A stretch of DNA of 41,166 nucleotides from positions 1 to 41,166 of the forward strand of contig WFSA01000035.1 in assembly GCA_015486215.1 (NCBI GenBank), read 5' to 3'. Position numbers and translations under genes: made by a program. Position 1 is the first letter of the stretch, and each line of letters opens with the position of its first letter. This document shows, in pieces, positions 513 to 1,108 of the stretch. The notes under the pieces are model-generated. The model made no database searches. It was not told the DNA's origin and saw nothing but the letters and a program-made list of their open reading frames with translations. This stretch comes from Anaerolineae bacterium (GTDB lineage: Bacteria > Chloroflexota > Anaerolineae > Promineifilales > Promineifilaceae).

Positions 513-560
513 GTGAAATCATTGTCTATGAGTGAGCGTTTTTATTTATGCGTAAATTGA
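513..560 (+). CDS. Possible 15-residue leader peptide overlapping the redoxin start
   Basis: A GTG at 513 sits 7 nt after a good Shine-Dalgarno (AGGAG, 501-505) and opens a 15-codon frame that ends with TGA at 558-560, past the redoxin ATG at 548. The redoxin ATG itself has only a weak ribosome site, so translation of this short frame could feed ribosomes to it by coupling. No similarity is recognised and the frame could be chance. The rest of the 374-547 stretch holds no other gene that I can see. Confidence 0.25.
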   Translation: MKSLSMSERFYLCVN

Positions 561-1108
561 AAGTTGGAAAACCAGCACCAGATGTAGGACTTGTAACATT
601 AGAGGGCAAACCATCCCGTCTTTCAGAGTATTGGGGAGAGGGGCGTTATGGCAACGGCCGTTCTGCCCTTCTCATCTTCATGCGCCATCTCGCTTGACTG
701 CCCTGCCGAGATCATGTGATGCAGGTTGTGTCACACCAAGCAGCATTTGAAGCCGCCAACATTAACATCGTGACGATCTCATTTGGTACCGCCTATTGGG
801 TAAATATGTGGCTGAATGAGACCAAATCCCCCTTTCCCTTTTTGCGGGATACAGAAAAATACGCTTACAAAGCGTACAATCTGGAATCATCCACATTACG
901 CTCGTGGAGTCCGGCGACCATTCTTTATTATGCCAAAGCAAAATTGCAAGGGCGCGAAATTCTTAGTCAACGAGGGGACGCACATCAACTGGGCGGCGAT
1001 TTTCTCATCGATCCACAAGGGGTAATCCGCCTGTCGCATCCGAGTTCTGATCCCACAGATCGGCCGTCGCTTGATGAATTGATGAAAGCAGTTTACAAAA
1101 TAGGGTGA
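548..1108 (+). CDS. Peroxiredoxin-like (AhpC/TSA family) protein, probable selenoprotein with in-frame TGA
   Basis: The frame runs from ATG 548 to TGA 1106-1108 (186 residues) with one internal TGA at 695-697, codon 50. The residues around it read FMRHLA-U-LPCRDH, exactly where AhpC/TSA-like redoxins of the 'FLRHFGC..C' type carry the first cysteine of CxxC. The TGA therefore replaces the reactive Cys, giving UxxC. Both sides remain open and family-like: a KVGKPAPD start, a beta-strand ALLIFMRH before the active site, and a VIRLSHPSSD segment near the end. This is what a thiol peroxidase or redox selenoprotein would look like; the family reduces peroxides or disulfides in the cytoplasm. The alternative is a recent TGC/TGT to TGA nonsense mutation. 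Nothing else in the frame is damaged, which favours selenocysteine. selA, selB, selC and selD are not in this window. Confidence 0.7.
698..732 (+). promoter_or_regulatory. Candidate bacterial SECIS hairpin
   Basis: Directly after the TGA, CCTGC (702-706) can pair with GCAGG (721-725). A further ATC/GAT pairing (711-713 with 718-720) lies inside, and a weak outer GAC/GTC pairing at 696-698 with 730-732. The inner loop begins about 16 nt after the TGA. With the 14-nt loop, a G is its second base, as bacterial SECIS elements prefer. The stem is short, so this is only suggestive. Confidence 0.4.

Follow-up and report, generated by a model that had tools for sequence, protein, structure and literature searches.

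The question raised by this locus is whether a TGA triplet lying inside a redoxin reading frame marks a broken gene or a false start, or is read as selenocysteine (Sec). UxxC and UxxU Prx-like thiol:disulfide oxidoreductases (PF00578) are known bacterial selenoproteins (PMC9312934, PMC13188914), and selenoprotein L (SelL), a Prx-like protein (PMC2398784) in which two Sec residues form a diselenide, is known from fish, invertebrates and marine bacteria (PMC2397514). In the window, namely the whole stretch of 41,166 nucleotides from an Anaerolineae bacterium analysed here, we find that the UGA at 695-697 almost certainly encodes the active-site selenocysteine of a 186-residue thioredoxin-fold SelL-related redox protein, for which a catalytic cycle is proposed below.

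Gene model and active site

Read from ATG 548, the frame contains a single internal TGA, which falls on residue 50 in the context FMRHLA-U-LPC, and the translation of 548-1108 is, this TGA aside, a complete redoxin (MRKLKVGKPAPD...FMRHLA-U-LPCRDH...). The features of the locus are the following.

548..1108, + strand: selL-related redox selenoprotein gene, 186 aa with probable Sec50 (UxxC), stop TGA 1106-1108 (translation; Pfam; NF040769)
695..697, + strand: in-frame TGA, very probably the selenocysteine codon that opens the UxxC active site (TGA also at this codon in 42 homologues)
704..706, + strand: TGC, resolving Cys53 of UxxC (translation; no residue but Cys or Sec in the 50-sequence alignment)
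715..735, + strand: bacterial SECIS-like hairpin UGUGAUGCA-GGU-UGUGUCACA, starting 17 nt past the TGA (same position, and covariation, among Sec homologues)
716..1108, + strand: 130-aa truncated ORF expected from standard gene calling, with a GTG start after the TGA (ORF listing)

The invariant active-site pattern of the family is F-x-R-H-x-x-[U/C]-x-x-[C/U], and the TGA of the window sits on the first [U/C]. A first-pass annotation had placed this TGA in frame on the first Cys of a redoxin CxxC, with an intact family-like frame on either side, and translation bears out both points, the frame being open as far as TGA 1106-1108. It had also expected automatic annotation to start the gene wrongly at an ATG after the UGA; the truncation is indeed found in the standard-code ORF list, which gives only the 130-aa ORF, but the first start is GTG 716 and the in-frame ATG at 719 comes second. 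The corrected gene model is of practical use, as standard annotation would truncate the gene and lose its active site.

The 130-aa ORF is open, and it could be proposed that the functional product begins at GTG 716 or ATG 719, the upstream part not being translated in continuity with it. Such a product, however, would have neither strands one to three nor any of the active site, whereas residues 42-47, directly ahead of the TGA, are among the most conserved in the 50-member alignment, and both parts together make one confident domain in the structural model; we therefore give this reading next to no probability, and continue with the full-length selenoprotein.

The gene lies at the start of the contig, the next gene encodes an MFS transporter on the opposite strand, and the neighbours give no functional clue. 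At 513-560 lies a 15-codon ORF, which starts at GTG 513, is preceded by an AAGGAG box, and runs to TGA 558-560, overlapping the start of the selenoprotein gene; it is either a leader peptide or a product of chance.

Family assignment and predicted fold

When Cys is put in place of Sec in the query, the protein scores above the Pfam gathering cut-offs of both AhpC-TSA (PF00578; 57.9 bits, cut-off 26) and AhpC-TSA_2 (PF13911; 45.4 bits, cut-off 27), and these scores together with a predicted thioredoxin fold, seen in the model and in its fold matches, place it in the AhpC/TSA superfamily. The AhpC/TSA-like redoxin of the first-pass annotation thus stands, and a better family name is SelL-related redox protein (NF040769), whose model is matched at 144.5 bits against a cut-off of 120 over positions 2-172 of 173; it is the sole member over this cut-off in its genome. 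AlphaFold, run with the 50-member alignment, gave a pLDDT of 92, and the modelled fold is peroxiredoxin/thioredoxin-like, with Sec predicted at a helix start, residue 50 standing directly before helix 51-61. In thioredoxin folds the attacking residue is usually found at that place, just ahead of the helix.

Fold matches of the model include Bcp/PrxQ, human prostamide/PGF synthase, ResA and AhpE. The Bcp/PrxQ peroxiredoxins (2cx3, 3hjp, 3drn) rank with the top fold matches to solved structures and 2cx3 is the best sequence match, but they are distant in sequence (E 7.5e-6), and the SelL-related model fits the window protein far better than the PrxQ models do. Human prostamide/prostaglandin F synthase (PDB 9usa) is the fold match of rank 2 (TM 0.73 over the query), and its redox pair C44/C47 has the same CxxC spacing; it differs in having Cys where the window protein has Sec, and in an identity of 18%. 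With SelL the comparison rests on the Prx-like name and the family model, and Sec at the first active-site position is shared; SelL proper, however, has two Sec residues (UxxU, diselenide), whereas the window motif is ULPC, so that the protein is SelL-related and not SelL itself. No feature was found that would set it apart from the NF040769 family and the Prx-like UxxC or UxxU selenoproteins, which share with it the fold, the UxxC motif and Sec in the first position; what is new is the sequence itself and the lineage of its host, and nothing else. Since UxxC Prx-like selenoproteins are already known, the window protein adds one more to a known family, and it is a solid but expected sort of selenoprotein.

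Homologues with TGA or Cys at the active site

Homologues were searched in 298 genomes of the class and 52 of the family; the genome-contig search gave no relatives of the locus, and all homologues considered here come from the whole-genome searches. Many of them have a TGA within the frame. Among the 51 family members in which the active site was read, the window included, codon 50 is TGA in 43 and Cys (TGT or TGC) in eight, so the alignment of Cys homologues proposed in the first-pass annotation agrees with its reading: an in-frame UGA stands where homologues have Sec or Cys. In the tree, seven of the eight Cys forms make up one clade (CPQC), and the eighth (L029) is the one Cys form to branch within the main Sec clade; G288, the genome it comes from, does not figure among those in which SelA was matched. 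With Sec counted as Cys, the positions invariant in the 50-member alignment are F44, R46, H47, 50, 53, G158 and P173.

These data bear on the possibility that the TGA is a nonsense mutation or a sequencing error in a former CxxC redoxin gene, for which a single change from TGT or TGC would suffice. The TGA, however, recurs at this codon across many genera and families, in relatives whose frames are otherwise open, and the further disabling mutations that the first-pass annotation had weighed against a selenoprotein are absent from these relatives of other genera; the searched genomes included no other species of the host genus, and hence showed no strain-level variants. Moreover, downstream of the TGA, at about 60% protein identity, third positions differ in 53-65% of codons and second positions in 13-19%, third-position differences being three to four times as frequent, which indicates protein-level selection on the segment past the TGA. 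Because the same codon recurs in 42 homologues and the downstream part is constrained at the protein level, the TGA is beyond chance, and a pseudogene has virtually no chance of being the right explanation.

Our analysis finds SelL-related UxxC selenoproteins to be common across this bacterial class and both active-site positions to have undergone switches; here nature provides a series of proteins in which Sec can be compared with Cys, and a diselenide with a selenenylsulfide. A more distant redoxin group, of which two members (L074, L075) were read closely, has the motif FNRGFxUPxC with TGA also at the first position, and many further weak one-TGA matches in the class may belong to it.

Selenocysteine machinery of the host genome

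The host genome (4.1 Mb, 96% complete) contains a tRNA-Sec with anticodon UCA, SelA (E 2.4e-135), SelB (E 2.1e-111) and SelD, i.e. all four of the components that the first-pass annotation had made decisive for its proposal. The SelD gene (L051:1411-2451, - strand) has an in-frame TGA of its own at the active site, CAGUASK (UxxK), and its product is by sequence itself a selenoprotein candidate; the UxxK motif is listed for selenophosphate synthetase selenoproteins (PMC9312934). A SelA match is found in 258 of the 298 genomes of the class, and for this reason its co-occurrence with the TGA form is a weak test. One point against the reading as Sec is that SelA gave no match in the draft genomes G108 and G128, which have the TGA form; both assemblies are highly fragmented, and SelA is present in further genomes of that genus.

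An in-frame TGA might also be read as Trp or Cys if the genetic code had changed generally or a suppressor tRNA were at work. Against this, the genome has the whole Sec machinery, this very gene ends in a TGA (1106-1108), and the homologues without TGA have Cys, the usual partner of Sec; we consider that such a reading has a very small chance. The pseudogene, truncated-ORF and code-change readings are rejected on the conserved TGA, the constraint, the loss of the active site and the Sec machinery. With this machinery in the genome, and with the codon retained in dozens of relatives, the TGA very probably stands for selenocysteine.

A SECIS-like hairpin downstream of the TGA

The short hairpin noticed just past the TGA in the first-pass annotation does exist (9 bp, loop GGU) and covaries among Sec homologues, but it is weak when seen from a single sequence. 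In the window alone it is not significant, as 29% of synonymous recodings fold as well (p 0.29), and the isolated segment 695-740, folded whole, prefers another structure (z -0.32). It is the comparison between species, not the single sequence, that makes the hairpin SECIS-like. In the class of homologues with an AGUU loop, changes on both sides occur in 33 cells against 12.4 in shuffles, the covariation is 0.464 against 0.142 (0 of 500 shuffles as high), and the real structure beats every slid version. The AGGUU class, to which the window belongs, gives a weaker signal, with 4 both-side cells against 1.2 and a covariation of 0.177 against 0.124 (1 of 500 shuffles as high); here a slide of +2 has a similar covariation score with far fewer paired cells. 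A SECIS hairpin shortly downstream of the UGA is thus strongly indicated in the AGUU class and modestly in the AGGUU class. Sec forms fold at this site with a mean energy of about -10 kcal/mol, Cys forms with one of about -6 to -7 kcal/mol. The loop A-G-G-U is similar to that of the E. coli fdhF SECIS.

Proposed mechanism and UxxU relatives

The machinery, the conserved TGA, the family and the fold all support the UxxC peroxiredoxin-like selenoprotein suggested at first pass. The computations establish the reading frame, the conservation of its TGA, the Sec machinery, the family and a modelled fold; from these we infer the actual insertion of Sec and, further, a catalytic cycle with its substrate and reductant. 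In the proposed scheme, SelB with Sec-tRNA-Sec would read UGA 695-697 as selenocysteine, helped by the hairpin at 715-735. By analogy with related enzymes, Sec50 at the helix N-terminus would then attack an oxidised substrate, which may be either a disulfide or a peroxide; Cys53 would resolve the intermediate, giving a selenenylsulfide that a thioredoxin-type system would reduce.

In four relatives (L022, L063, L064 and L065) TGA is found at both active-site positions, which is the UxxU motif of SelL, and the three of them that were scanned are all over the NF040769 cut-off. They come from three genomes of one genus and one genome of another family, and the tree requires two separate changes. 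It appears rather probable that the resolving Cys was changed to Sec at least twice independently in the clade, yielding SelL-type UxxU enzymes, and that the clade represents a series from UxxC to diselenide. If this is true, it would be a natural series useful for asking why the diselenide is selected.

Flanking repeats

Just past the gene stop, the window has at 1120-1165 a perfect 16-bp inverted repeat with tandem GTGACAGGCACTT, possibly a terminator or a dispersed palindrome; an Rfam scan of 500-1200 gave sub-threshold matches only, nearly all of them to this palindrome. On the other side of the gene, nested MITE-like elements occupy 140-373, where an inner element of 114 bp (210-323), bordered by the 8-bp duplication AGTATCAT (202-209, 324-331), lies within a related outer element of about 112 bp. 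The inner element has more than 30 copies in the genome, and empty copies of the outer one exist, in which the two halves overlap by 8 bp (e.g. G000:C114:6221-6334).
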